DNA of 64,000 bases. Source: Hydrangea macrophylla (lineage: Eukaryota; Streptophyta; Magnoliopsida; Cornales; Hydrangeaceae). The DNA lies in contig CM066995.1 of the NCBI GenBank assembly GCA_033977485.1, forward strand, positions 47,615,162-47,679,161, given 5' to 3'. The notes below the pieces were generated by a model, which made no database searches, was not told the origin of the DNA, and was given only the letters and a program-made list of their open reading frames with translations. Positions 12,712-56,217 of this stretch are shown here, in pieces (the stretch's first letter is position 1; every line of letters starts with the position of its first letter). The translations under genes and the position numbers were made by a program.

Positions 12712-12886
12712 TCTATATTTGGAAGGTCGTCTGCAGGAGGTGGAAAAGCAAAACGCTCTCCTGCAGACGGACTCGGTTATGCGGGAGGTGGATTTTCATG
12801 CACTGGAGCTCACCGTCAAAGAGCTGGTGGCCAAAGTAGCTGCCCTGGAGGAGGAGATTCAGGCTCTGAAGGGCAAGGATGCCTAA
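12712..12886 (+). pseudogene. C-terminal coiled-coil fragment of an antisense accessory gene
   Basis: An open frame runs from the junction at 12712 to TAA at 12884-12886. It encodes a heptad-rich stretch (LQEVEKQNALLQ, LELTVKELVAKVAALEEEI, LKGKDA). It is followed by a 3' untranslated segment (12895-12985, ggggaggctacta...actgcccccc) that resembles the one after the second accessory gene (16003-16075). It is therefore probably the 3' end of a paralogous antisense gene whose 5' part was lost at 12711. Confidence 0.5.
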
Positions 12887-34300: not shown

Positions 34301-34487
34301 TGCGGGCCAATAAACATTAAAGTTACAAAGTAGCCTTGGCTACTCTAGATACTGATATAGATTTACATATTGTACCTTCATACTCAATCTTTTGAAGAAA
34401 TTCAAAAGGTTTCGAATGAGGAGCTATTGGTAAAAGAATATCATTGCTTTTTGATTTGATCAAAATGGTATCTGTCTAATGCGTTTA
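31384..34487 (+). mobile_element. Decayed copia internal region (repeat unit B, left part)
   Basis: It is nearly identical to 6472-9597 and carries the same broken gag (ATG at about 32882, same Trp-to-stop and Gln-to-stop changes, zinc knuckle near 33592-33650). One private change is a deletion of about 29 bp near 33268 within the gag segment. The unit is split at 34487 by the insertion of the 21 kb Tat element and resumes at 55538. The five bases gttta at 34483-34487 are the left target-site duplicate. Confidence 0.8.
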
Positions 34488-37400
34488 TGTAGACACCCAA
34501 TTTTGACCACACTGATAGGATTTAGGGTGGACAACGTCTTGGAGGATTCGATGATGAAAAGTACCCCGTGGAAGGTACTGGATTCCACACAATCAGAAGA
34601 TCGGACTTCGGAAAGTGACTTCAAGCTCAGAAAAGCCCTTTTCCATGGATAAATCCCGGTTTTGTCAAAATCATCTCTCAGAATTCATATTCTCTCAGGG
34701 TTATATGAACATTAAGTGTTCTAAACGCAGTATTCTAGGTATCCAGAGATTCAATTTTAAAGAAAAGTTCGAAATCGACGCACATTTGAAAGCAATTTTG
34801 GAAAAGACGTCATTTGATTTCAAAAAGACGACGAAAGTTCCGGAGGACTTCCGGACTTCAATTGGACTTCAATTCTCATTATAAAACCTCTGGAAATATT
34901 TTTATATTGAAATTCAACCTGACAGCTTTCCAACGGTACGTAAACGGACGATTTCGGACACCAAAAAGCATTTTTACAGAAATCTGGAAAAGCAGTGCAC
35001 GTGATTTTTGAAACAGGGTTTGTGGGTGACCAGAGGAGCAAGAATAGTAAGTGGCGGTTTTGGGTATGGGGGTGGCGGGTCCCACCATAACCGCCACTTC
35101 CATTTGTGTCCTCCACGGAGCTTTTTGAGTTCCACACCCTTCTAGAAGCTTCCCACTGCGAGGAAATTGCCTGGAAATTGCGTTTAGGCTCCGAAATGGC
35201 CATTTTAACCCTCTTTTAAGCTCTAAAAATCCTGTTTTAACCCTGAAACTTAAGAGCTAAGTCTTCAAAACTCTATATAAGATCTCATACATCTCATATG
35301 AGATCACATCTTAACACACTAGACACTTGGAAGAGATACACTTGAATATACTTGGAGATACAAACACACATAGAAGCACATACAAGAGAGATAAGTATAC
35401 TTTGAATATACTTTCAATTTAGGTGAATTCTAGAGAGAGAAAATTATGAATTGAATTTAGATTAACTTAGGCTAATTAGACCACAATTTGAACATCAATT
35501 GCCTCCCTCAACTTCCATGGATGAGTGCTTGAAGAACACTTGAATAACACTTGAAGAAGAAGATCTTCAAATCAATTTTGGTCTTGTAATTGAGAATCCT
35601 CCAAGAGGTAAACACTATAGTTCATCTCTAATTCCTACTTTGTATATATAGATCTATAAGATTTGGATCTAACTTAGTTCTATTTCTACTTATTAGAACA
35701 CTCATCTTCTTCCTCTCATGTTCTTCACACACTCACATAGTTAGATCCAAATCTCTTTGATTTTTATTGATAATTTACAATTAGAGATTGTTTTTCACTT
35801 TGATTTTCAATTTTGGTTTCATTCTTCAATTTTAGTTTAGATTCATGCATACATGATTATATATATATACATATATCTATTTTGAATTCCATGATGGTTT
35901 GGAAATATGATCTATGAGAAGGATGATTTCTATGTTCATACCTATCTCTTGATTATTACTATTACCTAGAATTCCTATTGAATTTCATCTCCAACATGAT
36001 ATTTATAAGTCCCTTTGATCCTTGATCTAAAAGTTCTTCATAGAACTTGAGGGCTAAATTGATTGGGAATCATGATAATTAAGTTGATCTATGAGTTTGA
36101 TCTCTCTAATAAGCTTCAACTATCACTAAAATGTTTTCCTCACACTTTAAAATGAACTAGATAAAAATTCAGCAAAGCAGATTGGTTTTGTCCATTAGAT
36201 TTGGTCCATCAAAACCCATAGTTTGATGGATTTCAAATTTTCTGGGTAAACTTTGATGAATTAGCTTTCATCCGGTCCGTTTTGAGAGCTTTTAGGATTC
36301 ATATACTATTTTTAGAAATTGTTGAGAAATCGGTTGACAGATTTGAACATCGTCTCTTTGTGCTTGAATTTCAGAAAATCTATAATAGTTATCGACGTTC
36401 CGCTTTTTGGGGATGATTCCTAACTCATATATCTATATGCTGATGTAAAATCGTGAGCATACGATCGAGTTAGGATCGTTTTCTAAGCGTTTAAAGTTGA
36501 TACAACTATTCTGGAATTTTCTAAGTTTAATTACAAATATGATTATGTATACAAAATGGTCATACCTTGATCACTCAACAACAATTGATGAATAAAACTT
36601 GGTTTAGAAATCACCTAGGATAAATGGATGAGAGATCAAAAGCTTAAATCAACTTGGTTAACATGATTCATGAACTTCTATTATACTTCTATTATGTTTT
36701 GCATTCATTTGTCAAATGATACCAAATTTCCAGAATAACAGAGTCTGTTTAAAACACTTTTTTAGAAACCTTGTGATTACAGAATGTCCATGGGTTTATT
36801 TGTATCATATACTACAATGAAATAGCTTTCTTTTGACACCAAATAGAGCTTCATATGATTTTTGTAGATTTAATTATGATTTTTTCAAGAACAGTGGACA
36901 GTCCTGATCCACTGTTCCCAAAACATTTATTTCTCAAACAATAAAATTGATATTGAGGTCCCACTTTTTGGAGAAGTTCCCTAAGACATGTATCTAACTT
37001 TCTGTAAAAGGGTTTTTATCCAGCTCATGTTTAAGACCTCTTTTGATAGGATTCATTAGAGGTTGCTGAATCTGGAAATTTGATTGATGACATGTTTTCT
37101 TTGTTTATCATGCATATCATTTGTTTGCTTGTATTTTTGCAATGCTTTGGGTATTCTTTGGTGTCTTAGTGCAGAGAATTAAGTGCCTCGGACCCAGACT
37201 TCGATTTGTGGTTTGCCTCGTCTACATGTGGCTTAGTGCCCATGTATCATGTACTATCTTTATCCTTTCTCTTAGAATTTTTCTAGGTTTACAACTTTGA
37301 TTTCAACGACACATTTCCTTTAGGATAAGTCTCCGTTTATATGATTATTTGTTAGAGACATCTTATCTAGGATTGTTGCATGATTGCATTGCACGTTTAC

Positions 37401-37978
37401 ATTCTTTTTGCTTTCGCGACTCCGCTTGAGTCAACCAATGTAAGTCTTCTCGTTCCCTTTGCATATCATGACATGTTTACTTTATTTGCATCGGTCCCGG
37501 GCGGGACTAGCCACTGTGAGTATACTTCTCCCTTGTATTGCATGAGCATCCGCTTTCTACTTGATTTAGTCTCTTGAAATGATTTTCATTAGATGTTTCT
37601 TTTTGCCATGTACATATCTATCTAGTATGTTTGAGGAAACAACATCTATTATGAATTAATAACAAGGATATTTGAATCAAGGCCTACCATTCGGTAGGGC
37701 GAGGAGGGGGTGCTTTAGTCCTGCTTGGGCTCCTTCCCCTCTCGTACCAAGACCCCCGAACCTTGTTTCTGGTAATGAAGGGCGAGTAACCTTATTCAAT
37801 TTTGGGCGAGTCAAACTTGGGTTTCCTAATTCCCGATAAAAATTAGGTGGCGACTCTTTGTCTCTAGGATCGCGTGAGGAAGTCCTAGTTTTTCCTGAAG
37901 TGTGCTCCTTGGGATCCGTCCCGGGACACTATCGAGGGAGAGCGCCAGGACCTCCTCCTCCATTCGCGACGGTCCACA
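34488..37978 (+). repeat. 5' LTR of the 21 kb element (3491 bp)
   Basis: It begins TGTAGACACCCAATTTTG and ends CGACGGTCCACA. A TATA box (TATATAAG) lies at 35274-35281, so U3 is about 0.8 kb and R/U5 about 2.7 kb. A perfect 11 bp inverted repeat aagtggcggtt/aaccgccactt (35049-35059 and 35089-35099) lies about 175 bp upstream of the TATA box. A second copy of the first ten PBS bases occurs at 37848-37857. Short frames inside it are repeated in the 3' LTR and are not genes. Confidence 0.93.
35274..35281 (+). promoter_or_regulatory. LTR TATA box
   Basis: TATATAAG in the context ctctatataagatctc, followed by a leader-like region. It is the only well-formed TATA box in the first kilobase of the LTR and is the likely promoter for the full-length genomic RNA. 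The same box is at 52828-52835 in the 3' LTR. Confidence 0.6.
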
Positions 37979-37981
37979 ATC

Positions 37982-37999
37982 TGGCGACTCTGCTGGGGA
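37982..37999 (+). other. Primer binding site of the 21 kb element
   Basis: TGGCGACTCTGCTGGGGA begins three bases after the LTR end, where a PBS is expected. Ogre-type elements are reported to use a tRNA-Arg-type PBS of this general form; I infer the same here but could not check a tRNA sequence. Confidence 0.7.
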
Positions 38000-39505
38000 T
38001 TTGAACATGAAACCGATGGTTTCTTGTTCTTCGAGGGTTTGACTTGAGCCAAAGAATATCCTTGTTATTAATTCAATAATCATGTTGTTTCTGCCTGCAT
38101 TTGCACTTGCATTGTTCTTTCACCGCGACTGCTTGAGATCATTACCTTGAAGATAGAGGGCCCTCTTTCCTCTATTTGTCAAGAGTTTTGGTAGCATGTA
38201 GTCACCGTTAGCCTTGTACCGCGTGCGGTATATAGAGCCTATGTGTGAACGGCACGCCCTCGGGGAGGCGGTCAACCACACCGCTGAGCTTGCTAATGGA
38301 CCCTTTATGAGACTAAAACCCGGCCTTTGCATATAGTTTCTATAGAACCCTTCAATTAGGATCTTGATTATCATCTTTGATTAGGACAATGTGATGAATT
38401 ATTTGCGCTTGCCCGTAAGGGATTATGTGGATGATGAGGACGTGTATGCGAAGGCATCATCAAACCTTGTATGGTGGATTCCTCTAGGATAGTATGGTCT
38501 TTATCCGAACATCCAATCACTATTTGAGGACAATTTTGAAATTTTTTGAAATTATAAGCACTTCTTTGAAAAACCCCAAGTCTTTCGAAAATTCCAAGAA
38601 TATCCCTTTTGAAAATTTGCTTTGAGATTCACTTTCACAAAATCTTTCCAAAATTCTCCTTAGATTTTAGAGAATTTCAAAATTCCTATTTCCAGAAATC
38701 ATGATCACACTTTGATGATTCAATTTCAAATTCTCCTAGATTTTAGAGAATTTCAAAAAAAAAAAAATTTTACTTTGGTCTTCAAGAAATCATGATGATT
38801 CAATTTCAAAATCTTCCTCTCAGATCTTAGAATTTCAAAATTCCCACCTCAATTTTTAAGAATCATGATTTCTCACCACAAGCATTGATGGTTCAAAAAT
38901 TCTTTTGAAAATTACAAATCTCCCCATCTCTTTCAAAGATTTTCATGAAAAATTTCAATTTTGAAAACATGAACCATCAAGAATTTCAAAACTCAAAATC
39001 CTTGGATAATGATTGGATTAGTAGGGTGATTAGCATACTCAAGGAATCCTATGTGCTTATGTGTTGATATGCTAGGTCTAAGCTAGATTAAGGTGCATTG
39101 CATTTAGATTAGATTGCATTTCATCTGCATTGTATGCACTACACGAGCATTGCATATACGACTCACGAGTGCGACGCCTCTAATATACTTTCAAAAGAAA
39201 AGATTTGTTTTCCTCAGAATTTTGAAAGCTTGAAAAGATTTCTTTTGATTTTAAGAAAAATGTTTTTGAAAAAGGAATGATTTTCCATTTATGATTTCCA
39301 TCTTTGTAAATCCACCTTCTTATATCATTCTTTGAAAAATTCTTTTGCAATAAAGATACCTGATTATTTGAAAATCCCTAAATAAACCAGATAAGAAAAG
39401 ATAGGACCGAAAAGTTGTACTCCTTTCTGGGTCAGAGCTCCGAACAGCCGTTTGATCAGATCAGGGTTAGAAGAAGGAACAGCCGAGTCGACTAAGGTTG
39501 AAGAT
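38000..39505 (+). other. Leader of the 21 kb element
   Basis: About 1.5 kb between the PBS and the first in-frame ATG. It is AT-rich with recurring ttttgaaaattc-like words (38520-39340) and holds no substantial open frame. The additional upstream ORF1 described for legume Ogre elements is therefore absent or lost. Confidence 0.7.
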
Positions 39506-42500
39506 ATGACATACGAAGCGGATATGGAAGCCAGATTGGCCGCAATGCAAGCTGCCTTGGATCAGAGCAGGGAGCAGAATCGAGAACAACTTGCCACTAT
39601 GATGAGAATGATTGAGCAGCTAACTAATCCACCACCACCACCTCCAGAGCATCATGAAGAAGAAGATTTTGGGGAGACAGTTCAACCAAAGGTTCAGCTA
39701 GATCAGGAAATTCAGGACAAGTTGGCCAAGATCGACAAACTAGAGAGTGTGATCAGAAAGAGCAAAGGGGTGGATGAGTATTTGTTCGATGTTGAAGGGT
39801 TGTGTGACGCTCCAAAAACCAAACTCCTAGAGAAGTTTAAGATGCCGCATATTGAATTTTTCAATGGAACTGGAAATCCGAAGAGCTATCTGAGGCTTTA
39901 TGTAGGAACTTTGCAGCCTATGGGCATTGAATCTGACCTCTTCGCTCTATTGTTTCCAAGAGTTTTGAGTGGAGCAGCACTTTCATGGTACTTGACGTTG
40001 GAACCAGCCATAACCAGAGATTGGGAGGCATTGGCCAAAGCTTTCGTGGCTCAATATTCATATAACCAGTTGTTTGATGTAACTGCAAGAGATCTAGAAA
40101 CCACCCGACAAGAGTATAGGGAATCCTTCGCAGGTTTCCTTACTCGTTGGAGAGCTAAAGCTGCTCAAATGACTAGCAGGCCAGCGGAAAAAGATCAGGT
40201 CCGAATGATCATCAAGAATCTACAGCCCGAATACTTGGAAAGGCTAGAATTTCAGTCCATTGTGAGTTTCGAACAGCTGTTTGATGTGGGAACTTTGATA
40301 GAAGATGCCATTAGAGATGGAAAGATCAAGAAAGAAAACACGAGCAATCGATACAGAAAGACAGAAAGGCCAGTCTATCATCAGTCTGCTGACGTCAACA
40401 CACTATCTCCTCAGCCTTTTCAGAAAGAGCGTCGAAGTATGGCTAATGCAAGAGGAAGTCAAAATCAGAAACAGTCGAGAGAGAAAAGAGAATTTTCCGA
40501 CTTGGGGATGCCACTAAGCACCGCACTTGAAAGAATGATAGAAAAAGGGTACTTGCAGAAATTGGAACCTAAACCAGAGCCAAATCCACTTCCACCGGGT
40601 TTCAAAACAGAGTTCTTTTGTGACTTTCATCAAGGCCGTGGACATAGCACAGATAGATGCTGGAGACTTCGCCATGAAATTGAAGACTTGATTGAAAAAG
40701 GGGTCATCTCCCCTCCTCCCTCTCAGCCAAATGTTCAGAAGAATCCTCTCCCTAATCATAAAGGGAACATGCCAAATGTTAACTTTGTAGAAGAAGGATC
40801 TCAGATTTATAACCCAAAGATCTACATCACATCCTCGAATCAACCAGCTATGGATGTTCAACTTCCGGAAGACGCTGCAATTTGCATCTTGAGGAATATG
40901 GAAGAGGAAGAATGGGTCGAAGAAGCACTGGCTTTTGAAGAAGAAATAGCCAACGGAAATCTTACGATTGAATGGTGGGATCCCAATGCCATCACCGACG
41001 ACTCGATCTGGTATGAGGAAGAAAAGCCCATAGAAGCAGTCACCGAGAAACAAAGCACTGAGCCGATAGAAGAATTGCTAAAGCCTGTCGAGAACCTTGA
41101 AATCAAAGATGACGATCTTATTGCAATGATGGAAGAAGAAGAAGATTGGTGGTATGATGATGAGGATGATTCCGTTAATAATACCATAATCCCCGATGAT
41201 TCTGTTTGGAAAATCACTGTTGGCACCGAAAAGTTAGCCAAAGAACTTGAGTCTATCTGGATCACCAATGAAGCAAACCACTTGACCCGTTCCGGACGTC
41301 ATTTCAAGCCTCATGAGTTAGAAAATCGTAATGAGAAAGAAGTCGTCAAAACAAAAGAGGCTGGTAAAGGAGCCGTGAGCGAAGAAGAAGATGAAATCTT
41401 AAAGCAATTGAAGAAAACACAAGCTTGGATCTCAGTATGGGGATTACTTATGACCTCTCACAAACACAGGCAGGCCATGCTCGATACTCTCAATCGTTTG
41501 GATGTTTCTGTCAATACTACTCCCGAAGATCTAGTAAACATGATCTCTTCAAAGCCTTGTAAGCCTGTAATCACATTCACAGATGAAGATTTACCGCCGG
41601 AAGGAGCACACCACAACAGAGCTCTCTACATCACTGTACATTGCCTGGGGAATAGAGTACCGGTCTGCTTGGTAGATAATGGGTCAGCCTTGAATGTATG
41701 TCCTCTCCAAACAGCTCTCAGAATGGGGTTGTCTATTTCAGAACTCTTGCCATCAACACAAACTGTGAGGGCCTATGATAACACCAAAAGGGCCATTGTG
41801 GGAATGATTAAGTTGAAAATTGAAGTCGGGCCATTAAACAAAGAAGCTGATTTCCAAGTGATTGATATTCCGGCTAGCTTTAATCTGCTATTGGGACGTC
41901 CGTGGTTACATGTGAATGATGCAGTCGCCTCCACTCTCCACCAGAAAGTCAAGTTCATCTGGAAAGAGGATGTGGTAACAATCTTTGGGGATAGCTGGAT
42001 CAAAGAAGAAGGGACAAGCCATGGTCCTGTGCTAGAAGTCCAAACACCGGAAGAAGAAAATGAATTAGGAGGATTCAACTTTGTGGGAATGATAAATGAA
42101 GGAGCTAAGAAAAAGAAATCCGTTTGGGATCGACTCAGCTATGAGAAGAAACTTCCTGATGCATCTGTCTGGGGCGAAGAAATCACTCCGATCAAGAAAA
42201 AGAAGCCGTTCATCACCGGACGCGAATATAGAAAGATGTTCGAGAAGGGAAACCCGGTTGCCAAAGATCTACAAGAAGAAGTGGGACAGAATTGGATCCC
42301 TGAAGTCATGCCATTGTACTTTGACCAGTATGCCAATCCTAAAGTGGCTCATATGGTGCGGAAGATGAACTATTTTCCTGGAATGGGACTAGGTCGTCGT
42401 CAACAAGGAATAACTGAACCACCGAACTTCCACGAACAGAAAGATAAATCTGGGCTTGGGTATCAATTGACTGAAGAAGATAAAAAGAAGATGACAAAAG

Positions 42501-45500
42501 GAAAAGGGCCGATGGTTGTTTCTGGGCCAAGAATCCTGAATGGATACTTCGTGAAAGAAGGCGATGACTTTCCCTTCTGTGGGTTCCCTGAACCATGGTA
42601 TGATCCGGCTACCAAGAACATTAAGCCTGGATTTGAGATTTTCTTCAAACATGAGTTCTCCGACTATGAGGATCCGTTCTTGTATACTCCGCCTATCAAG
42701 AAAGAAAGGAAGGACTGGGCTGAGCTGATGACAAGTGATGATTTGAACATGCTAATGGATGAAGAGCTGAACATGCTGATGGATGCCGAAGAAGCACTGG
42801 GAAATGTGAAAGAAATCAAGCCAATAGAGGGAGCTCTGAACAATTGGGTGATAGAATCGGAAGTCAACAAATCCCCTCCCCCATTTCCCCGGAAGTCTGT
42901 AAAGGCCAATATGAGCCATGATGTTGAGTCTGCTTTTGCTTTTGATGTACCCAAAAATGTTAATGAAATGAACGAGGATTTTGCTTACTCTTCTGTGTCT
43001 GATGATCTTGATTTTGAAATTTCTGAGGATTTGCAAAGATTAATTGAAAATGAAAATGAATCTGCATGCAAGATTATTGAAGAAACTTTGCTAATAAACT
43101 TGGATAATGAAGATAATCCACAAAATGTTCATATTGGCACCACGCTCACTTCACAAGAAAGCAATGAACTAATCAACTTATTAAAAGAATTTAAAGATGT
43201 TTTCGCTTGGTCCTACCAAGATATGCCAGGCATCGATCCAGAGATTGTCCAACACCACATCCCTCTCTTTCCAAATTCAAAACCTGTTAAGCAAAAGTTG
43301 AGACGCATGAGACCCGAATGGACTTTGAAGATCAAAGAAGAAGTTGAGAAACAATTGAAAGCTGGATTCCTGATGGTAACCCAATATCCGGAATGGATAG
43401 CCAATATAGTTCCTGTGCCAAAGAAGGATGGAAGGATCCGTGTATGTGTTGACTTCAGAGATCTAAACAAGGCTAGTCCTAAGGATGATTTTCCGCTTCC
43501 ACACATAGATGTTCTGGTAGATAGCACCGCGGGGCATGAGTTGTTATCATTCATGGATGGTTTCTCAGGGTACAATCAGATTTTAATGGCACCCGAAGAC
43601 AGAGAAAAGACTACATTCACAACTCACTGGGGGACGTATTGCTACCGAGTAATGCCATTTGGGTTAAAGAATGCCGGAGCGACCTATCAGAGAGCTGCTA
43701 CTACTTTGTTACATGACATGATCCATAAAGAGGTAGAAGTTTATGTGGATGATATGATTGTTAAGTCCAAAGAAAGAAGTGGGCATTTAACAGCACTCGC
43801 CAAGTTCTTTGAAAGATTAAGGAAATACAGAATGAGATTGAATCCACAGAAGTGTACTTTTGGAGTTACCACCGGAAAGCTGCTGGGATTTCTCATCACA
43901 CAGAGAGGAATTGAGGTTGACCCCACAAAGATCAAGGCTATTATGGATATGCCGCCTCCGACAAATGAAAAGGAAGTAAGAGGATTTCTGGGAAGAATCC
44001 AATTCATCAGCCGCTTCATATCTAAGCTCACTGCTACTTGCGATCCGCTTTTCAGCTTGTTGAGAAAAGGGAAGAAATTCGAATGGGACAATCAATGTCA
44101 AGAAGCTTTTGACAAGATCAAGGCTTATTTATCAAACCCACCGGTTCTTTCACCCCCGAAATCAGGGAAGCCTTTGCTGTTGTACTTATCCGTGTCAGAG
44201 AATGCTATGGGATGCATGTTAGCCCAAGAAGGAGATGAAGGGCGTACAGAGAAAGCCATTTACTACTTAAGTAAAAGGATGACTGGATACGAATTGAAGT
44301 ATTCTCCGTTAGAAAAGACATGTTGGGCTTTGGTTTGGGCCACTCGTCGTCTGAGGCATTATATGTTGGCCTTCCCTGTTGTTTTAATCTCCCGAATGGA
44401 TCCTTTGAAGTACCTATTTGAAAAACCAGCATTGACCGGAAGAATCTCCCGATGGACATTGATGCTATCTGAGTTTGACTTGATACATGCTACGAGTAAA
44501 TCTGTTAAAGGAAGGGCTGTCACAGAACATTTAGCAGAACATCCGATAAATCTGGAAAACGAAGGAGAGTTCATGTTCCCTGACGAAGGATTGATGGAAT
44601 TAAAAGAAGATGTGTGGAAAATGTATTTTGATGGAGCTGCAAACCAGAAAGGATATGGAGTGGGGATCATCCTTGTATCCCCTGAAGGAGCACATACCCC
44701 GTTCTCTATTAAGCTGAAGTACACTTCCACCAACAACACTGCTGAGTATGAAGCTTGTATCTTGGGGCTAGAAGCCGCATTGACTTTGGAGGTAAGGAAA
44801 CTTGATGTATTCGGGGATTCCAATTTGATCATATCCCAAGTTCGAGGAGATTGGAAAGTCAAGGAAGAGAAGTTAAAACCCTATCATGAGTATCTTGATT
44901 CTTTACGAACTCGTTTCTTGCATATCACGTTCTTCTACCTGCCTCGAGAAGAAAATCAGCTAGCAGACTCTTTGGCTACTTTAGCGTCAATGATTGAGAT
45001 TCCTGTGGGGATAAAGCTAACTCCTTTGATGATTGAACAAAGGGAAAAGCCGTCTTATGAGATGATTGGGGAAATAGAAGAAGCAGAAGAACTTCCGTGG
45101 TACACCGACGTGTGGAACTTCATTGAAAATGGGGAATATCCGGAAAGCGCCTCCGAGAAAGACAAGAGAGCCATAAGAAGATTCTCGGCTCAGTTCATGA
45201 TTTGTGGTGGAAGTCTATTGAAGAGATCTTACAATGGATTCAACTTGACATGTCTATATGGAAACAGTGCGAGAAAGATGATGGAGCAAATTCACGAAGG
45301 GGTGTGTGGTCCTCATATGAGTGGACACATGTTAGCTAAGAAGATCATCCGACGAGGATATTATTGGACTACTATGGACAAGGACTGCTATGAATATGTC
45401 AGAAAATGTCACAAATGTCAGATCCATGCCAATATGAAGTATGTGCCGCCGTCACTGCTATACAACATGACTACCCCTTGGCCATTCTCAGTTTGGGGAA

Positions 45501-46342
45501 TAGATGTTATTGGAGAAGTAACCCCGAAGGTGTCTAATGGGCATCAATACATCCTGGTAGCAATTGATTATTTCACAAAATGGGTGGAAGCAGAGTCTTA
45601 TGCGACATTGAAGGCTAAAGATGTGGCCAGATTTATCAGAAGAAATATAATCTGCCGATACGGGGTCCCTCATGAGTTGATATCCGATCATGGCAGTCAC
45701 TTCCAGAAAGAGGTTTTGGATCTACTAGAAGAATACAAGATCATGCACCACATGTCAGCGCCGTATAGGCCACAAACAAATGGGGCAGTTGAAGCAGCTA
45801 ATAAGAATTTGAAGACGATCCTAAGAAAGATGACTGATACATACCGAGATTGGCATGAGAAGTTACTGTATGCACTGTGGGGATACAGAACATCTATCCG
45901 AACATCTACAGGAGCCACTCCTTATTCATTGGCTTACGGAATGGAAGCAGTACTCCCAGTTGAAATAGAACTACCATCTTTGAGAGTTGTGGCAGAATCC
46001 GAGATTCCAGAATTTGATTGGCTAAGAGATAGATATGAGGAGCTAATGTTACTTGATGAGAAAAGGTTGGCCGCAATTGATCATGTGCATGTGTATCAGA
46101 GAAGAATAGCTCGAGCATTCAACAAGAAGGTCCGTCCAAGAAAACTTGAGGAAGGCGACCTTGTGCTTAAAGCCTTAAAAGCACCCGTTTTCGATCCTAG
46201 AGGGAAATTCAAGCCAAATTGGGTTGGCCCATACGTCATCAAGAAGCTTCTCTCTGGAGGAGCGGCATACCTGATGGATCTAGATGGAGTTGAGTTCAAT
46301 CAGCCAATCAACATTGACCGTCTCAAGAGATACTATGCTTAA
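39506..46342 (+). CDS. Gag-pro-RT-RNase H-integrase polyprotein (2278 aa)
   Basis: The frame is open from 39452, but that position is TTG; the first ATG is 39506 (MTYEADMEARLAAMQ). Domains, numbered from that Met: gag about 115-290 (FFNGTGNPKSYLRLYV, SGAALSWYLTLEP); knuckle variant CDFHQGRGHSTDRC at about 372; acidic linker; protease active site DNGSALNVCP at 724; G-patch-like segment 950-990 (MNYFPGMGLGRRQQG ... SGLGYQ); RT with YVDD at 1413-1416; a first RNase H lacking its Asp (LYLSVSENAMG, about 1560); archaeal-type RNase H from FDGAAN (Asp 1709) to ENQLADSLA; integrase HHCC from His 1930; catalytic Asp 2000, Asp 2061, Glu 2096 (D,D35E). The tail ends FNQPINIDRLKRYYA. No stop or frameshift. 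It directs replication and integration of the element. gag and pol are fused without a frameshift, as in many Tat elements. Confidence 0.95.
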   Translation: MTYEADMEARLAAMQAALDQSREQNREQLATMMRMIEQLTNPPPPPPEHHEEEDFGETVQPKVQLDQEIQDKLAKIDKLESVIRKSKGVDEYLFDVEGLCDAPKTKLLEKFKMPHIEFFNGTGNPKSYLRLYVGTLQPMGIESDLFALLFPRVLSGAALSWYLTLEPAITRDWEALAKAFVAQYSYNQLFDVTARDLETTRQEYRESFAGFLTRWRAKAAQMTSRPAEKDQVRMIIKNLQPEYLERLEFQSIVSFEQLFDVGTLIEDAIRDGKIKKENTSNRYRKTERPVYHQSADVNTLSPQPFQKERRSMANARGSQNQKQSREKREFSDLGMPLSTALERMIEKGYLQKLEPKPEPNPLPPGFKTEFFCDFHQGRGHSTDRCWRLRHEIEDLIEKGVISPPPSQPNVQKNPLPNHKGNMPNVNFVEEGSQIYNPKIYITSSNQPAMDVQLPEDAAICILRNMEEEEWVEEALAFEEEIANGNLTIEWWDPNAITDDSIWYEEEKPIEAVTEKQSTEPIEELLKPVENLEIKDDDLIAMMEEEEDWWYDDEDDSVNNTIIPDDSVWKITVGTEKLAKELESIWITNEANHLTRSGRHFKPHELENRNEKEVVKTKEAGKGAVSEEEDEILKQLKKTQAWISVWGLLMTSHKHRQAMLDTLNRLDVSVNTTPEDLVNMISSKPCKPVITFTDEDLPPEGAHHNRALYITVHCLGNRVPVCLVDNGSALNVCPLQTALRMGLSISELLPSTQTVRAYDNTKRAIVGMIKLKIEVGPLNKEADFQVIDIPASFNLLLGRPWLHVNDAVASTLHQKVKFIWKEDVVTIFGDSWIKEEGTSHGPVLEVQTPEEENELGGFNFVGMINEGAKKKKSVWDRLSYEKKLPDASVWGEEITPIKKKKPFITGREYRKMFEKGNPVAKDLQEEVGQNWIPEVMPLYFDQYANPKVAHMVRKMNYFPGMGLGRRQQGITEPPNFHEQKDKSGLGYQLTEEDKKKMTKGKGPMVVSGPRILNGYFVKEGDDFPFCGFPEPWYDPATKNIKPGFEIFFKHEFSDYEDPFLYTPPIKKERKDWAELMTSDDLNMLMDEELNMLMDAEEALGNVKEIKPIEGALNNWVIESEVNKSPPPFPRKSVKANMSHDVESAFAFDVPKNVNEMNEDFAYSSVSDDLDFEISEDLQRLIENENESACKIIEETLLINLDNEDNPQNVHIGTTLTSQESNELINLLKEFKDVFAWSYQDMPGIDPEIVQHHIPLFPNSKPVKQKLRRMRPEWTLKIKEEVEKQLKAGFLMVTQYPEWIANIVPVPKKDGRIRVCVDFRDLNKASPKDDFPLPHIDVLVDSTAGHELLSFMDGFSGYNQILMAPEDREKTTFTTHWGTYCYRVMPFGLKNAGATYQRAATTLLHDMIHKEVEVYVDDMIVKSKERSGHLTALAKFFERLRKYRMRLNPQKCTFGVTTGKLLGFLITQRGIEVDPTKIKAIMDMPPPTNEKEVRGFLGRIQFISRFISKLTATCDPLFSLLRKGKKFEWDNQCQEAFDKIKAYLSNPPVLSPPKSGKPLLLYLSVSENAMGCMLAQEGDEGRTEKAIYYLSKRMTGYELKYSPLEKTCWALVWATRRLRHYMLAFPVVLISRMDPLKYLFEKPALTGRISRWTLMLSEFDLIHATSKSVKGRAVTEHLAEHPINLENEGEFMFPDEGLMELKEDVWKMYFDGAANQKGYGVGIILVSPEGAHTPFSIKLKYTSTNNTAEYEACILGLEAALTLEVRKLDVFGDSNLIISQVRGDWKVKEEKLKPYHEYLDSLRTRFLHITFFYLPREENQLADSLATLASMIEIPVGIKLTPLMIEQREKPSYEMIGEIEEAEELPWYTDVWNFIENGEYPESASEKDKRAIRRFSAQFMICGGSLLKRSYNGFNLTCLYGNSARKMMEQIHEGVCGPHMSGHMLAKKIIRRGYYWTTMDKDCYEYVRKCHKCQIHANMKYVPPSLLYNMTTPWPFSVWGIDVIGEVTPKVSNGHQYILVAIDYFTKWVEAESYATLKAKDVARFIRRNIICRYGVPHELISDHGSHFQKEVLDLLEEYKIMHHMSAPYRPQTNGAVEAANKNLKTILRKMTDTYRDWHEKLLYALWGYRTSIRTSTGATPYSLAYGMEAVLPVEIELPSLRVVAESEIPEFDWLRDRYEELMLLDEKRLAAIDHVHVYQRRIARAFNKKVRPRKLEEGDLVLKALKAPVFDPRGKFKPNWVGPYVIKKLLSGGAAYLMDLDGVEFNQPINIDRLKRYYA

Positions 46343-47215: not shown

Positions 47216-49344
47216 TCAGCGACGACGAGTAGCCCGTGGGTACCGAGCAGGCATATCTGAGGCCGTAGAGCTATCATCATCTTCAATTTGGCGCCTTCGC
47301 CTAGACCCACCAGCCCCACCAGAAGGGCCTGCATTCATCCGCTCCAACTGTGATTGAAGCTGCCTAACTTGAGCCACCTGTGGAAGAAAAGAATCAGTAT
47401 AGGGGTTTGAAAAAGCAATGAGATAAGAAGAAAAGGTCAAGAAATTTACCAGGGCCGCATCACGGTCTATGTAAGTCTGGCACATGCCATCCCACTGCAA
47501 AGAGAAGGAAGATATGGTCAGAAAGATCAGAAGAATCAGAGGTAATGAGTTCAGAAATTACTTACATGTCCCTCACGAGCAAGGCTCCAAGCCCTCAGAT
47601 TCTGTGCATAAGCTCGCTCTTCATTGAAAACGGCTCGGGGAACGGACTCATGTTGTTCTGAAACTAGCTGAGGCTCTACAAGATCACGGGGGATCTCTAC
47701 AGAAGATATAACTCCGCGCAGCATGGTCGAGGCTCGCCAATCACAAGGAGGAATGAGAGGTAGAGGTCGACCAGGGCCATCCACAAAAGAACTCCCCTGC
47801 AAATGATGATGAGAAATAAGATAAAGCAAGCATTCGATCAGAAATGAAGAAGTCGTGAAATACCTGCGGGTCATCCGAGAGCGGGAAATCAGGCATCAGA
47901 TGAGTAACCCTGAAGACGTCATAGTTCTCCTCAAACAGAGTAAAAGAGGCTGAAAGAATTCCGTTCAAAGCATTAATAAGATCTTCATCTTCCAAATTCT
48001 GCGCCGACCTCATACAAGAAGGCGGATCCTGTGGCACTAAGAGACGATCCTCCAAATCAGTCTGAGGAGCTACTCTCTCTCCAAGATACCACTCAAGAAC
48101 AGAGGGACCCTCAAGAAGAATCCTCTCTCCAGTCATCTGTCTAGCTAAGCCAATCTCAGTCACATCTCCATTTGTCACCCAAGGATGCCAGTTAACTTGG
48201 GTGAATCTGAGACGGGTAAGAAAATCCCGGCAAGAAATAACATTATGAGCATCATTCTTGGTACCTACGGCTTGGCGACGCCACTTCAGAGCCCGTGGAA
48301 AAATATGAATCTCTTCCTCCCGGAATGATGGAGCCGTCATGGAGAAATACTCAAAGGCCCACACCTACAAGAGAAAATAAAGCAGTGGTCAAAACAGCAG
48401 AACATCAAATGATAAAAACTGGAAATGAAAATATTTTCAGTACCTCCCAAGCTCTCCAGAATCCGCCGAATCCAGGGGATTTGCCTCGAGAATGCTCCCC
48501 CATATGACTATACAGAATGGCTAAACCAGCAGAGCCCCAATCAAAATCTGCAATCTCCTCAAGATTTCGAAGACTATCAAGCATATTCAATGTAATCCGC
48601 TCAGCTCGAGTAGAAAGAAGAGAGCAACCAAGCAAATACAAGATGAAAGCACGGGTAAGCTGCATATCGGTAAATTGAGCCGCTCTTTCAGAAGGCCTGA
48701 AGTTGTTGATGAACCATGTGATGCCTACGCTCGATCCGTGAAGATCTCTCTGGGATGGGATGATGCCTAGGAGACGCTCAATGATAGTAGGATGTCTATG
48801 GATGTTCTTTGCAAAGGCAAGACGATGCCCGCCAAATGAGATGCCGGTTATCATTGCAAAATCAAGAGGGGTCATGGTTATCTCCCCAAAAGGCATGTGA
48901 AAAGTATTTGTGGAATCCCACCACCTTTCAGCAAGAGCTTGAATCATGGCCAAATCATTAGTCGATCTCTCCAATAAGGTTACAAACGACCCAAAGCCCG
49001 CTTGCTTGATATTGGCTACTACTTGGGGACGCGACTCCGACAATTCATTAAACCATTCAAGGCATTTTCCATGGCTACCATGACCTCTAAGATGACCAAC
49101 CACATTCTAAAAAGAAAAAAGGATGATTTCTAAGGAATCGCAAGAATAAAGAGACACGTATGAAGATGTGAAACAAAGGAGTAATTAAAGAATGGGTTAC
49201 CTCTTGACGAAAGGCCCTCCTAGAGATATGATTTAGTGGATTTTTCATGGTTGCATACTCCATGGTTTGAGTTGATGAAGCTCCACTAGCTTGAAATTGG
49301 CTTCTACGTGTTCTAGAACTTTCACCTTGTCCATGGGAACTCAT
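47216..49344 (-). CDS. Antisense six-exon gene for a plant mobile domain (PMD) protein, 581 aa
   Basis: Exons on the minus strand: 49344-49201, 49106-48444, 48364-47864, 47796-47566, 47494-47450, 47377-47216. They join with five GT-AG introns of 94, 79, 67, 71 and 72 bp, all phase 0, giving one uninterrupted frame (1746 nt) ending TGA. The N-terminus is Ser/Arg-rich. The PMD core is in exons 2-3: ALAERWWDSTNTFHMPFGEI, TPLDFAMITGISFGG, RAFILYLLGCSLL, LEEIADFDWGSAGLAILYSH, GFGGFWRAWE joined to VWAFEYF, then WVTNGDVTEIGLARQ. The C-terminus has a short coiled coil (VRQLQSQLERM) and an Arg-rich end. PMD occurs in the Arabidopsis MAIN/MAIL1 proteins, which affect TE silencing and meristem function, and in TE-encoded versions. 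The gene lies within the retrotransposon, opposite to pol; its role there is unknown. Every splice junction restores the frame, so decay is not evident. Confidence 0.88.
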
Positions 49345-50260
49345 GGTTGTTGATGCTTGAAGCTTGAAGATAAGAGGTTGAAGATGATGAATAGTAAAAA
49401 CCTTGGTACTTGAATCCCCTAGAATAGGGAGGAGTTGATGAAATCAACAAAGTTTTTGGAGGATTTAATGCAAGAAATCACTCAAAACATCAAGAAATTG
49501 CAAGATTTGAGCACCTTAGAAGGAAGAGGTGATGCATTGAAGAAGAAATGAATGAAGAACAAAGAAGAAAATGGGTTTAAAACCCCAAAGTTGCGGCTGG
49601 CGGTTCCCAAGGGGGTGTGGGGAACCGCCATTTACTATTCACTTCCTGCCATTTCCCCATTTTGCTCTATATTCGCGTTTTGACCCCCGGAACTCTTGAT
49701 TTGATCCCGGATTGGTCCATTTTTGATATATAAGCCTTGAGAGTGCTTAAAACTTGTTGGAATTGGTCTAGAGGACCTCTGGAGATTTGAATCTTGGTAA
49801 AAATCCATTCAAGAATTGAAAAAAAGTCCCCCAGATGAGAAGAATCAAAGGCACCGCAGCCTGAAAGTGGCCGAGAAACGGCAAACTCCCGTCGTTTTGG
49901 GATTAATTATGAGTTGTCTTAGAAAATGGACATTTGAGTCTACTGTCGCTTGAGAATTACATCCAGAAAGGACTTTCAGAAGATGGGTCAGAATGCGAGA
50001 TGTTCAGAAAGGGTTAGAGTAAGCCTGACGTGTTGCAAGAATGATTGCGTTGGTCGAAGCACCAATATGAGTCTCAGAAAGAATCAGCAGGGCCTCCAGA
50101 ATATGTGCTCGCATCCCAGAAACCTCAGATATCTCCTCAAGCAGAGAATTTCCAGATATTGTCAAGGTATAACAGAATTCGTGCATCTCTCAGAATCATA
50201 GGATCTCCCCAGTAGAGAACTTTCAGAATTAAGTTTCTCGCAAGCATCATGTATCCACGG
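49345..50260. other. Upstream region of the PMD gene
   Basis: No protein-coding frame is convincing here. It contains the inverted repeat at 49598-49630 and candidate TATA-like sequences on the minus strand, so it probably holds the antisense promoter. From about 49960 the sequence grades into diverged cagaat-rich repeats. Confidence 0.45.
49598..49642 (-). promoter_or_regulatory. Inverted repeat upstream of the PMD gene, related to LTR U3
   Basis: tggcggttccc (49598-49608) and gggaaccgcca (49620-49630) form a perfect 11 bp inverted repeat with an 11-base loop. On the minus strand the flank plus arm reads gaatagtaaatggcggtt, which matches the LTR U3 sequence gaatagtaagtggcggtt (35042-35059) at 17 of 18 bases in the same orientation relative to transcription. 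A TTTTAAA (minus strand, about 49577-49583) and a TATATA (minus strand, about 49719-49725) are candidate TATA elements for the antisense gene. Confidence 0.5.
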
Positions 50261-50261
50261 G

Positions 50262-51029
50262 TTGCCTCCAGATAAAGGGTATCTCTCAGAATTTGAGCAT
50301 CAAAATCGCCTCCAGAATACAAGGTTTATGCCAAGCATCATGTATCCAGGGTTGCCTCCAGAATGTAGGGTTTCTCTCAGAATCGTGGGTTGCCTCCAGA
50401 ATGTAGGGTTTCTCTCAGAATCAGAATCGTGGGTCGCCTCCAGAATACAAGGTTTATGCCAAGAATCGTGTATCCGTGGGTTGCTCTCAGAATGTGGGGT
50501 TTCTCTCAGAATCGTGGGTTGCCTCCAGAATGTAGGGTTTCTCTCAGAATCAGAATCGTGTATCCAGGGTTGCCTCCAGAATGTAGGGTTTCTCTCAGAA
50601 TCATGTATTTCTCAGCATCGCATATCAGGGTTGCCTCCAGAATGTAGGGTTTCTCTCAAAATCAGAATCGTGTATCCGTGGGTTGCTCTCAGAAGAAGGG
50701 TCATCTCTCAGAATTTGTGTATCTCTCAGAATCCGTGCATCAGAACAGAAGATTTGTCCTCAGAAGAAGGGCCTGTTTCAGAAGAACAGAGGATTTGTCT
50801 CCGGCAGAGAGACCTGTTTCAGAAGATTTGTTTCTAGACCTGCCACAGAAGATTTGTCCTCGGAAAAAGGGCCTGTTTCAGAAGAACAGAAGATTTGTCT
50901 CCGGCAGAGAGACCTGTTTCAGAAGACTTGTTTCCAGACCTGTTACAGAAGATTTGTCTAGAAGAAAGACCTGTTTCAGAAGAGCAGAAGATTTGTCTCC
51001 GGCAGAGAGACCTGTTTCAGAAGATTTGT
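50262..51029 (+). repeat. Degenerate minisatellites of the 3' region
   Basis: Two successive arrays. At 50262-50700, units of roughly 35-45 bp are built from gttgcctccagaatgtaggg and tttctctcagaatc. At 50740-51029, units of 60-70 bp contain gaagatttgtc, cggcagagagacctgtttca and gaagaacag. Long frames across them are an artefact of the repeat having no stops. Hypervariable tandem repeats in this position are established for Ogre/Tat elements. Confidence 0.8.
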
Positions 51030-51443
51030 CCCCAGCAAAAGGACTCTACATCAGCAATCGTCCCCAGCAAAAGGACTCTACATCAGCAATCGTCCCCAGC
51101 AGAAGGACTCTACATCAGCAATCGTCCCCAGCAAAAGGACTCTACATCAGCAATCGTCCACAGAAGAAGGACCTGTTTCAGCAATCGTCCCCAGCAGAAG
51201 GACTCTACATCAGCAATCGTCCCCAGCAGAAGGACTCTACACCAGCAATCGTCCCCAGCAAAAGGACTCTACATCAGCAATCGTCCCCAGCAGAAGGACT
51301 CTACATCAGCAATCGTCCACAGAAGAAGGACCTATTTCAGCAATCGTCCCCAGCAGAAGGACTCTACATCAACAATCGTCCCCAGCAGAAGGACTCTACA
51401 TCAGTAATCGTCCCCAGCAGAAGGACTCTACACCAGCAATCGT
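51030..51443 (+). repeat. 32 bp tandem array, 13 units
   Basis: Units read ccccagcagaaggactctac then atcagcaatcgt, with few changes. Units 5 and 10 are 31 bp variants (ccacagaagaaggacct...), so the array contains a five-unit higher-order period. It has no spacers and lies about 600 bp before the PPT. Confidence 0.88.
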
Positions 51444-51767
51444 CCAGTTGTTTGACATGACTCAGAATTCATCCAAGATACTTCGCTATTTCAAGAGTCG
51501 TCCAGGATACAGATGACGCCTACGAGCCTTAAGATCAGAAGAATAACTTTGACAAAAACCTCGAGAATCATCCAAGATACCTTTAGCATATTCGACTGTG
51601 AGAGAGAGTCGTTGCATCCTTTGCATTAGATTTTGCATCTAGGGAACCCTTGAGGATGATTCCTCCAGCACTTTCACATTTCATGTTTTCATATTGCACC
51701 AGCATCCTAGGATAGGAGCATTTCATCCGCATTGTTGTTGTTTGTTTTCCGTTTTCCCGCGCGCTTG

Positions 51768-51810: not shown

Positions 51811-52028
51811 TCCAGCGGAGCACGACCAGCATCAGCTTCAACTTAGCCGCCTCTACCCAGCATTGCATTGCATTCTTGCATTCGTAATTTCTTGATTTTC
51901 TCTGATTTTGAATTTCTTGATTTTGCGAATTTTTTGTTTTTCCTAAAACCTCTCAGTATGGTTATTTGGGTGCCTTCAAGGCTTTGGCACTCACTTGCAG
52001 TTCACGTTGTTCACAACAAGCTCTGCCA
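51811..52028 (+). other. Pre-PPT spacer
   Basis: About 220 bp with no gene, CT-rich then T-rich, between the third stem motif and the polypurine tract. Confidence 0.4.
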
Positions 52029-52041
52029 AAGAGGGGCAAAC
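52029..52041 (+). other. Polypurine tract of the 21 kb element
   Basis: aagaggggcaaac directly abuts the 3' LTR start (TGTAGACACC at 52042). It would prime plus-strand DNA synthesis. Its core aggggcaaac is repeated in the three hairpins at 46584-46701. Confidence 0.8.
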
Positions 52042-55000
52042 TGTAGACACCCAATTTTGACCACACTGATAGGATTTAGGGTGGACAACGTCTTGGAGGA
52101 TTCGATGATGAAAAGTACCCCGTGGAAGGTACTGGATTCCACACAATCAGAAGATCGGACTTCGGAAAGTGACTTCAAGCTCAGAAAAGCCCTTTTCCAT
52201 GGATAAATCCCGGTTTTGTCAAAATCATCTCTCAGAATTCATATTCTCTCAGGGTTATATGAACATTAAGTGTTCTAAACGCAGTATTCTAGGTATCCAG
52301 AGATTCAATTTTAAAGAAAAGTTCGAAATCGACGCACATTTGAAAGCAATTTTGGAAAAGACGTCATTTGATTTCAAAAAGACGACGAAAGTTCCGGAGG
52401 ACTTCCGGACTTCAATTGGACTTCAATTCTCATTATAAAACCTCTGGAAATATTTTTATATTGAAATTCAACCTGACAGCTTTCCAACGGTACGTAAACG
52501 GACGATTTCGGACACCAAAAAGCATTTTTACAGAAATCTGGAAAAGCAGTGCACGTGATTTTTGAAACAGGGTTTGTGGGTGACCAGAGGAGCAAGAATA
52601 GTAAGTGGCGGTTTTGGGTATGGGGGTGGCGGGTCCCACCATAACCGCCACTTCCATTTGTGTCCTCCACGGAGCTTTTTGAGTTCCAGACCCTTCTAGA
52701 AGCTTCCCACTGCGAGGAAATTGCCTGGAAATTGCGTTTAGGCTCCGAAATGGCCATTTTAACCCTCTTTTAAGCTCTAAAAATCCTGTTTTAACCCTGA
52801 AACTTAAGAGCTAAGTCTTCAAAACTCTATATAAGATCTCATACATCTCATATGAGATCACATCTTAACACACTAGACACTTGGAAGAGATACACTTGAA
52901 TATACTTGGAGATACAAACACACATAGAAGCACATACAAGAGAGATAAGTATACTTTGAATATACTTTCAATTTAGGTGAATTCTAGAGAGAGAAAATTA
53001 TGAATTGAATTTAGATTAACTTAGGCTAATTAGACCACAATTTGAACATCAATTGCCTCCCTCAACTTCCATGGATGAGTGCTTGAAGAACACTTGAATA
53101 ACACTTGAAGAAGAAGATCTTCAAATCAATTTTGGTCTTGTAATTGAGAATCCTCCAAGAGGTAAACACTATAGTTCATCTCTAATTCCTACTTTGTATA
53201 TATAGATCTATAAGATTTGGATCTAACTTAGTTCTATTTCTACTTATTAGAACACTCATCTTCTTCCTCTCATGTTCTTCACACACTCACATAGTTAGAT
53301 CCAAATCTCTTTGATTTTTATTGATAATTTACAATTAGAGATTGTTTTTCACTTTGATTTTCAATTTTGGTTTCATTCTTCAATTTTAGTTTAGATTCAT
53401 GCATACATGATTATATATATATACATATATCTATTTTGAATTCCATGATGGTTTGGAAATATGATCTATGAGAAGGATGATTTCTATGTTCATACCTATC
53501 TCTTGATTATTCCTATTACCTAGAATTCCTATTGAATTTCATCTCCAACATGATATTTATAAGTCCCTTTGATCCTTGATCTAAAAGTTCTTCATAGAAC
53601 TTGAGGGCTAAATTGATTGGGAATCATGATAATTAAGTTGATCTATGAGTTTGATCTCTCTAATAAGCTTCAACTATCACTAAAATGTTTTCCTCACACT
53701 TTAAAATGAACTAGATAAAAATTCAGCAAAGCAGATTGGTTTTGTCCATTAGATTTGGTCCATCAAAACCCATAGTTTGATGGATTTCAAATTTTCTGGG
53801 TAAACTTTGATGAATTAGCTTTCATCCGGTCCGTTTTGAGAGCTTTTAGGATTCATATACTATTTTTAGAAATTGTTGAGAAATCGGTTGACAGATTTGA
53901 ACATCGTCTCTTTGTGCTTGAATTTCAGAAAATCTATAATAGTTATCGACGTTCCGCTTTTTGGGGATGATTCCTAACTCATATATCTATATGCTGATGT
54001 AAAATCGTGAGCATACGATCGAGTTAGGATCGTTTTCTAAGCGTTTAAAGTTGATACAACTATTCTGGAATTTTCTAAGTTTAATTACAAATATGATTAT
54101 GTATACAAAATGGTCATACCTTGATCACTCAACAACAATTGATGAATAAAACTTGGTTTAGAAATCACCTAGGATAAATGGATGAGAGATCAAAAGCTTA
54201 AATCAACTTGGTTAACATGATTCATGAACTTCTATTATACTTCTATTATGTTTTGCATTCATTTGTCAAATGATACCAAATTTCCAGAATAACAGAGTCT
54301 GTTTAAAACACTTTTTCAGAAACCTTGTGATTACAGAATGTCCATGGGTTTATTTTTATCATATACTACAATGAAATAGCTTTCTTTTGACACCAAATAG
54401 AGCTTCATATGATTTTTGTAGATTTAATTATGATTTTTTCAAGAACAGTGGACAGTCCTGATCCACTGTTCCCAAAACATTTATTTCTCAAACAATAAAA
54501 TTGATATTGAGGTCCCACTTTTTGGAGAAGTTCCCTAAGACATGTATCTAACTTTCTGTAAAAGGGTTTTTATCCAGCTCATGTTTAAGACCTCTTTTGA
54601 TAGGATTCATTAGAGGTTGCTGAATCTGGAAATTTGATTGATGACATGTTTTCTTTGTTTATCATGCATATCATTTGTTTGCTTGTATTTTTGCAATGCT
54701 TTGGGTATTCTTTGGTGTCTTAGTGCAGAGAATTAAGTGCCTCGGACCCGGACTTCGATTTGTGGTTTGCCTCGTCTACATGTGGCTTAGTGCCCATGTA
54801 TCATGTACTATCTTTATCCTTTCTCTTAGAATTTTTCTAGGTTTACAACTTTGATTTCAACGACACATTTCCTTTAGGATAAGTCTCCGTTTATATGATT
54901 ATTTGTTAGAGACATCTTATCTAGGATTGTTGCATGATTGCATTGCACGTTTACATTCTTTTTGCTTTCGCGACTCCGCTTGAGTCAACCAATGTAAGTC

Positions 55001-55532
55001 TTCTCGTTCCCTTTGCATATCATGACATGTTTACTTTATTTGCATCGGTCCCGGGCGGGACTAGCCACTGTGAGTATACTTCTCCCTTGTATTGCATGAG
55101 CATCCGCTTTCTACTTGATTTAGTCTCTTGAAATGATTTTCATTAGATGTTTCTTTTTGCCATGTATATATCTATCTAGTATGTTTGAGGAAACAACATC
55201 TATTATGAATTAATAACAAGGATATTTGAATCAAGGCCTACCATTCGGTAGGGCGAGGAGGGGGTGCTTTAGTCCTGCTTGGGCTCCTTCCCCTCTCGTA
55301 CCAAGACCCCCGAACCTTGTTTCTGGTAATGAAGGGCGAGTAACCTTATTCAATTTTGGGCGAGTCAAACTTGGGTTTCCTAATTCCCGATAAAAATTAG
55401 GTGGCGACTCTTTGTCTCTAGGATCGCGTGAGGAAGTCCTAGTTTTTCCTGAAGTGTGCTCCTTGGGATCCGTCCCGGGACACTATCGAGGGAGAGCGTC
55501 AGGACCTCCTCCTCCATTCGCGACGGTCCACA
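52042..55532 (+). repeat. 3' LTR of the 21 kb element (3491 bp)
   Basis: It has the same length as the 5' LTR with about seven single-base differences and no indels noticed by eye. It ends GGTCCACA at 55532, followed by the right target duplicate gttta (55533-55537). Confidence 0.93.
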
Positions 55533-56217
55533 GTTTATTACCTATATCAGATAAGAATGAGATTCTTTCTCAGTCGTCTACACTTAGTGCGCCTTCATGG
55601 GATGGTATAGCAAGTAGAAGGAACTATTTTCTTTTAGATATGACTGGGTCATGAGATGAGGTATTTAGAGTTACTAATTCCTTATGTTTTCTTGATGGCT
55701 ACAAACAAATTTTAGATATGATTGGGTCATGAGATGAGGTATTTAGAGTTACTACTATTCCTTGTGTCTAGATCATGTTTCGAAAGGCTCAAAAAGGCCA
55801 CAAACAAATTTTGAGAGCTGACATACACGTTGTGAAATTATTAAATTATGATTGGAAGATCTTATAGGAATCAACTACATGAAAAGCAAAATTGATTGGC
55901 TAGGTAAAAGTGAACATGATCGATCCTCATAACAAAACAAAAAAAAAAAGAAAAAGAAAAGAAAGGGAGAATGAAATTGAATTCTCTTATTCAAAGCTAC
56001 CACAAGTGGCTCAAGTTTGAACTTCTTTGATGATTAGTTTGAGAAACCCTCATACCTCAACCTTTCCATAACCATTGGCTTGAACTATGCTCGACCTGAT
56101 TCCCGCTCGAGGATACTGTGGACACGCAGCCTTTAGGAGCCCACCCCCGTTTTTCGGGAAATTGATCCTTTTGAAATTGCTTTGAAATAGAAATTGATTT
56201 GTAAAAAGGTCTGTTGA
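55533..56217 (+). mobile_element. Repeat unit B, right part (copia integrase relic and Tat scrap)
   Basis: It resumes the copia relic exactly where 34487 left off, with SQSSTLSAPSWDGIASRRNY readable at about 55570-55630 and the same internal duplication as in copy A. At about 55990-56217 it carries the Tat 3' scrap (gaactatgctcgacctgatt near 56082). A 12-15 bp deletion relative to copy A is visible near 56157. Confidence 0.75.

Follow-up and report, generated by a model that had tools for sequence, protein, structure and literature searches.

An intact, spliceable PMD frame antisense to pol in a young Ogre-type retrotransposon of Hydrangea macrophylla

The PMD gene and its host element

A gene encoding a PMD protein was found in a stretch of 64,000 nucleotides from Hydrangea macrophylla (assembly GCA_033977485.1, contig CM066995.1, positions 47,615,162 to 47,679,161 of the forward strand). 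This whole stretch is referred to as the window, and positions are counted from its first letter. The gene runs on the minus strand from 49344 to 47216 and is located, in antisense orientation, between pol and the 3′ long terminal repeat (LTR) of a 21,045-bp Ogre-type element at 34488-55532. It consists of six exons and five introns, and the joined frame comprises 581 codons plus a stop codon. An earlier reading of the window, made from the letters alone (the sequence-only reading), had given the coordinates of the six minus-strand exons, with GT-AG introns and the 581-codon frame opposite pol, exactly. The gene and its candidate promoter include the following features:

49727..49732, minus strand: TATA-like sequence 388 nt upstream of the PMD start codon, candidate antisense promoter (pattern match only)
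49201..49344, minus strand: exon 1 with the start codon (splice consensus and open frame only)
48444..49106, minus strand: exon 2, bulk of the PMD core (domain match, joined frame, alignment with relatives)
48365..48443, minus strand: intron 2, 79 nt, phase 0, within the PMD core (joint WRAWE|VWAFEY; inserts in gene models of relatives)
47864..48364, minus strand: exon 3, end of the PMD core (domain match, joined frame, alignment with relatives)
47566..47796, minus strand: exon 4 (splice consensus and open frame only)
47450..47494, minus strand: exon 5, the least certain exon (joined frame; the exon chainer took another end)
47216..47377, minus strand: exon 6 with the stop codon, encoding a heptad-like stretch, an acidic stretch, and a basic tail (joined frame; similar tail in relatives)

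The exons measure 144, 663, 501, 231, 45, and 162 nt, each length being divisible by three. The introns (94, 79, 67, 71, and 72 nt) are all of phase 0 with GT-AG borders, and their AT content is 63-70% compared with 52% for the exons. The joined protein matched the Pfam profile PF10536 (PMD) over positions 13-290 of 347 with E=1e-40 and 140.5 bits, exceeding the gathering score of 34.9 and thus placing it in the PMD family; the three motifs on which the sequence-only reading had based this identification are also present. When the open frames of exons 2 and 3 were taken singly, E-values were 2.2e-27 and 5.7e-8, respectively, the latter match lying under the Pfam cut-off, so joining over intron 2 improves the PMD score. 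No other PMD copy was detected in the window by tblastn, and Rfam gave no match.

As a chance control, a crude exon-chaining score was compared with that of 100 dinucleotide-preserving shuffles. The real stretch scored 240.8, whereas the shuffles had a mean of 83.4 and a maximum of 166.4, and none reached the real value. The chainer favored a different, longer end of the gene (662 amino acids, with exons 5 and 6 altered). Because it chose another route there, only exons 2 and 3 are rated as certain. Exons 1 and 4 to 6 are plausible, given their splice consensus, open frame, and C-terminal make-up; the acidic stretch and basic tail at the C-terminus also occur in 7 of 13 relatives (alignment A1).

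The element around the gene is delimited by the following features:

34488..37978, plus strand: 5′ LTR (TGTAGACACC...CCACA), from BLAST self-comparison, its ends, and the GTTTA target-site duplication
37982..37998, plus strand: likely primer binding site TGGCGACTCTGCTGGGG, by its position directly after the 5′ LTR
39452..46342, plus strand: gag-pol in a single frame of 2296 amino acids with gag, G-patch, reverse transcriptase, RNase H, second RNase H, and integrase (list of open reading frames; Pfam scan in two pieces)
52028..52041, plus strand: likely polypurine tract AAAGAGGGGCAAAC, by its position directly before the 3′ LTR
52042..55532, plus strand: 3′ LTR, from BLAST self-comparison and the element ends

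BLAST self-comparison aligned the two LTRs (3491 bp each) with seven mismatches and no gap. The element, flanked by a target-site duplication of GTTTA, is inserted within one LTR of an older element, and the copy of this outer LTR that was not invaded has GTTTA only once. As the PMD gene lies inside an LTR pair together with gag-pol, it is encoded by a Gypsy element, one of the traits of Gypsy-type PMDs (PMD-A).

The seven LTR differences correspond to an LTR divergence of 0.2%, or about 0.1% per element copy since insertion. Taking commonly used plant rates, we assume an insertion age of the order of 0.1 million years. The young 21-kb element described in the sequence-only reading was thus recovered. 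Its proposal that the open frame is a sign of selection at the element level was rejected: fewer than two substitutions are expected in the 1746-nt PMD frame since insertion, so that its being open says nothing about selection after that event.

In the second Pfam piece, the second RNase H (RVT_3, 626-744) lies between RT_RNaseH (472-575) and the integrase (from 840), an order which according to REXdb characterizes Ogre and Retand. Most Ogre elements are described as having two polyprotein frames split by an intron, a trait absent from the single 2296-amino-acid frame found here; REXdb calls the intron-split polyprotein typical of Ogre, yet gives it little weight in classification. The PMD gene and the putative primer binding site favor assignment to the Ogre lineage (Ty3/gypsy, Tat) over Retand, Ogre elements being reported to use a tRNA-Arg primer.

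The G-patch domain of the polyprotein (about 42341-42463, E=1.4e-7) precedes the reverse transcriptase and co-occurs here with PMD; G-patch domains in Gypsy elements have been reported previously. The polypurine-tract word AGGGGCAAACT at 52032 has three further internal copies (46583, 46634, and 46680) in hairpin-like repeats directly after pol. With one mismatch allowed, four matches compare with 0.93 expected, a number reached in 0 of 100 shuffles.

Relatives and the history of intron 2

A search of 5.8 billion proteins yielded 23 relatives, from Rhododendron, Prunus, and Camellia, with a best identity of 38%. A second protein search with a profile gave 16 matches, all of which were among the first 23. 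In viral contigs, 36 pattern matches for PMD relatives were obtained, none of which was confirmed. For comparison, a later search gave 1987 MAIN-type matches, of which the 120 listed rows were used. The label covers some rows named MAIN-LIKE or PP7-long-form as well as some that are probably transposon copies (one has a MULE domain, and several stand for many members). The comparison set was assembled without Arabidopsis MAIN and MAIL1 and without the published PMD-A sequences.

An unrooted tree of 41 rows (the window protein, 14 of its 23 relatives, and 26 rows drawn from the 120 of MAIN type) separated the window protein and its relatives from the MAIN-type rows with support of 100/100, a split that is partly a product of design because the two groups came from two separate searches. 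With no root, the split gives no direction to the suggestion of the sequence-only reading that host PMD genes may go back to such elements. The window protein has a long branch (1.76) and is placed beside Prunus with support of 91/93. Of 59 columns at which the 120 MAIN-type rows show identity of 90% or more, the window protein has retained 41. The lost columns include sites at which the MAIN-type letter is absent from every Gypsy-type row, namely (i) R in RWR; (ii) L in TL; and (iii) Q before LW. The window gene thus carries a Gypsy-type signature in an intact spliceable frame, placed between pol and the 3′ LTR of a young element.

Evidence on introns in the relatives comes from their gene models and not from their DNA. 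Most of the 23 relatives align across the joint WRAWE|VWAFEY without a gap, but two gene models have an insert exactly at the intron-2 site: a Camellia protein (P0013, 42 amino acids) and a Prunus protein (P0022, 13 amino acids). The Camellia insert starts with V and ends with Q, matching readthrough of a phase-0 GT...CAG intron, whereas the Prunus insert is too short for a whole intron. A third relative (P0023) skips into the intron-2 site, and a fourth (P0018) shows an ambiguous difference of three residues. Breaks in three or more of the 23 rows were seen at sites 186 (nine rows), 157 (three), and 269 (three); the last is intron 2, and site 186 is an insert common to Camellia rows. None of the 120 MAIN-type rows has a break at the intron-2 site (119 are gap-free, one has no letters there). 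Two Camellia gene models (P0012 and P0018) start, or take up again, close to the site corresponding to intron 1; they were not counted, as their distance from it shifts with the alignment.

Intron 2 is therefore probably shared with relatives in Prunus and Camellia, genera that we take to lie on opposite sides of the rosid-asterid split. If the relatives are likewise antisense genes in Gypsy elements, the simplest reading would be that intron 2 is old in the Gypsy-type lineage and predates that split. Together with the PMD core common to relatives in other plants, the probable sharing of intron 2 is better evidence of long-term constraint than the open frame.

From the anatomy of the element, introns in antisense orientation can be kept through retrotransposition, since they are not removed from the genomic RNA by splicing. 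This would explain the antisense placement as the sole position in which an intron-containing gene survives retrotransposition unspliced.

Predicted fold, repeat zone, and surrounding element

The predicted fold of a MAIN-type PMD matched the DNA-bound crystal structure of VANC21 (9lnj). VANC21 is encoded by VANDAL21, a MULE DNA transposon of Arabidopsis, and resembles the PMD gene product in being element-encoded and in the presence of non-coding repeats in its element, in addition to the fold match of the MAIN-type PMD. It differs in belonging to a DNA transposon and in its domains (DUF1985/DUF287, with no PMD at the Pfam cut-off), and DNA binding and loss of methylation were shown for VANC21 only. 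Carried over to the element protein, this fold points to a VANC-like DNA-binding role at least as much as to the competing PMD envisaged in the sequence-only reading.

A feature of the Hydrangea element that could correspond to a binding target is the following:

49950..51445, plus strand: repeat zone between the PMD gene and the 3′ LTR, candidate target array, with tandem arrays from 50306 (tandem repeats; CAGAA count)

Within this zone, CAGAA occurs 52 times on one strand and not once on the other, compared with 5.6 expected occurrences, and none of 500 shuffles had as many. Eleven of the 52 copies lie ahead of the tandem arrays (1.5 expected). The word was chosen post hoc, after inspection of the zone. 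As a lead, the CAGAA-rich zone is a candidate for the type of array that VANC proteins target. Plus-strand open reading frames at 50262-51460 were rejected as genes because they are located within the tandem repeats.

Several observations weigh against a VANC-like role. For the Gypsy-type model, whose confidence was low (48.6), VANC21 was not among the structures listed by Foldseek alone; a first structure model (P0002) was poor. DUF1985 scored 16 bits in the window protein against a Pfam cut-off of 35.1, and the protein is therefore not classed as VANC. Solved structures searched by sequence (alignments A2 and A4; exon 2) gave no PMD relative and did not return VANC21, so that the link to VANC consists of structural similarity and weak DUF1985 scores. 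The same fold is present in MAIN-type proteins, yet MAIN and MAIL1 are reported to promote silencing; a shared fold shows no shared function. Tandem repeats inflate the count of every word they contain, and they are described as common in Retand and other non-chromovirus elements.

A library of viral folds gave no match at E<=0.001. A protein of Senna tora (P0024) combines a MULE transposase and PMD with a match to DUF1985 that falls within the PMD core and stays just under the cut-off of 35.1 bits (33.8 bits, E=3.9e-8). Of the sequences seen, it connects PMD and the VANC domain best.

The outer, older element (6471-58638) is Retand-like, with LTRs of about 6.2 kb and gag-pol on the minus strand (22532-17060). 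Its LTR at 6471-12712 pairs with the interrupted copy at 31382-34488 and 55533-58638 (97-98% identical). It has an antisense gene of its own, with frames at 13881-15793 on the plus strand matching Transposase_28 (E=6.1e-9). This gene also looks spliced: a phase-0 intron at 15311-15394 (GTAAGTAA...TTTGATTGCAG) would join one piece to a coiled-coil-like piece. Such antisense open reading frames were counted apart in a survey of Retand. A diverged direct duplication (23675-25440 and 28079-30121, 85-89% identical) lies in the 5′ part of the outer element. Directly after the outer LTR, a 186-bp unit occurs twice in tandem (58709-59088, 99-100% identical), which reflects either duplication in the very recent past or an error of assembly.

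Possible functions of the antisense PMD protein

The window gene is a real, well-preserved instance of a published kind. PMD is present in 57% of surveyed Ogre elements (PMC6317226), the PMD-A clades (A1/A2) are encoded exclusively by Gypsy elements (Ikeda et al. 2017; PMC5418596), antisense accessory genes have been published (PMC7264820), and counter-silencing by PMDs encoded in transposable elements has been proposed in a review (PMC8616336). With PMD-bearing Ogre elements and PMD-A1/A2 the window element has in common its Ogre-type polyprotein order and the PMD domain. Published Ogre PMDs were counted as single open frames of at least 250 codons, and the portion of that survey available to us does not mention introns, whereas the window gene has six exons and five introns. 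Among the literature matches listed, there was no report of introns in an antisense PMD gene, nor of a fold link between PMD and VANC21, although the paper on the VANC21 structure may contain the latter.

In Grande (gene23) and Retand (Transposase_28), too, the stretch from pol to the 3′ LTR holds an antisense gene; for Grande, a promoter of its own and a nuclear protein were reported (PMC7264820). Unlike the window element, neither antisense gene encodes PMD, the Retand domain being PF04195. MAIN, MAIL1, MAIL2, and the long form of PP7 (PMD-C) have the PMD domain in common with the window protein, but MAIN-type proteins fall on the opposite side of the tree and show no break at the intron-2 site in the 120 rows compared, and MAIN and MAIL1 act in silencing.

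The reading we prefer, although it stands about an even chance of being right, is that the gene serves an Ogre-lineage Ty3/gypsy element as an accessory gene in antisense orientation, whose spliced product would be a nuclear DNA-binding protein countering the silencing of its own family. The proposed steps are (i) an antisense promoter near 49.7 kb would drive an mRNA that is spliced by the host; (ii) because the genomic RNA has the opposite direction and no splice sites there, the introns would be copied unchanged in each round of retrotransposition; (iii) the PMD protein would enter the nucleus and bind a short motif repeated in the 3′ repeat zone of its own element; and (iv) it would relieve its family of silencing by the host, in the way that VANC21 acts for VANDAL21.

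Alternatively, the nuclear protein may be an accessory to the replication or integration of the element (in the pre-integration complex or in RNA transport) and not act on silencing. Such a role was proposed for other Tat-group antisense genes, among which the Grande protein is nuclear (PMC7264820), and the basic C-terminal tail fits it. We consider it unlikely: the predicted PMD fold matched a DNA-binding protein that counteracts silencing, and nothing seen ties PMD to replication. Slightly less likely still is the view taken in the sequence-only reading, in which the element protein may mimic host PMDs and interfere with the MAIN/MAIL1/PP7L complex, so that MORC1 would fall and silencing would weaken broadly. 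The domain in common with MAIN and MAIL1 and the 41 near-invariant columns kept agree with such mimicry; MAIN, MAIL1, and PP7L are reported to interact, MORC1 falls in their mutants, and the suggestion that element-encoded PMDs counter silencing (PMC8616336) would suit it as well. The deep split from MAIN-type PMDs and the Gypsy-wide differences at near-invariant sites argue otherwise, and a broad loss of silencing would also release competing elements and harm the host.

A role of the antisense transcript as RNA, pairing with the genomic RNA and feeding small RNAs while the protein is secondary, is improbable, since a conserved protein core and an open frame of 581 codons need not last if the RNA alone matters. 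Double-stranded RNA was nevertheless named as a possible role for antisense genes of this kind (PMC7264820), and in tea, PMD genes yield 21-nt phased small RNAs, with 175 PHAS loci at PMD genes whose expression is very limited (PMC10673657). Least probable of all is a functionless passenger gene, open merely through the youth of the copy: at 0.2% LTR divergence the frame would stay open without selection since insertion, but PMD occurs in the majority of surveyed Ogre elements noted above, the core is conserved across relatives, and intron 2 is probably shared.

More tentatively than the counter-silencing role itself, and less probably than not, PMD and VANC may together form a single superfamily of anti-silencing proteins that are encoded by transposons and act in a sequence-specific manner. 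Ogre would then have carried an intron-containing antisense version since before the rosid-asterid split, and the rapidly changing 3′ tandem repeats would be coevolving binding arrays, as in VANDALs. If this is true, MAIN and MAIL1 would represent this anti-silencing family in the host, but with an effect in the opposite direction. Many Ogre elements carry PMD genes, and in hosts PMDs govern silencing and meristems, while PMD itself has been described as a domain of unknown function. A fold common with a DNA-bound anti-silencing protein would give PMD a concrete biochemical hypothesis, together with a candidate target array in the same element.
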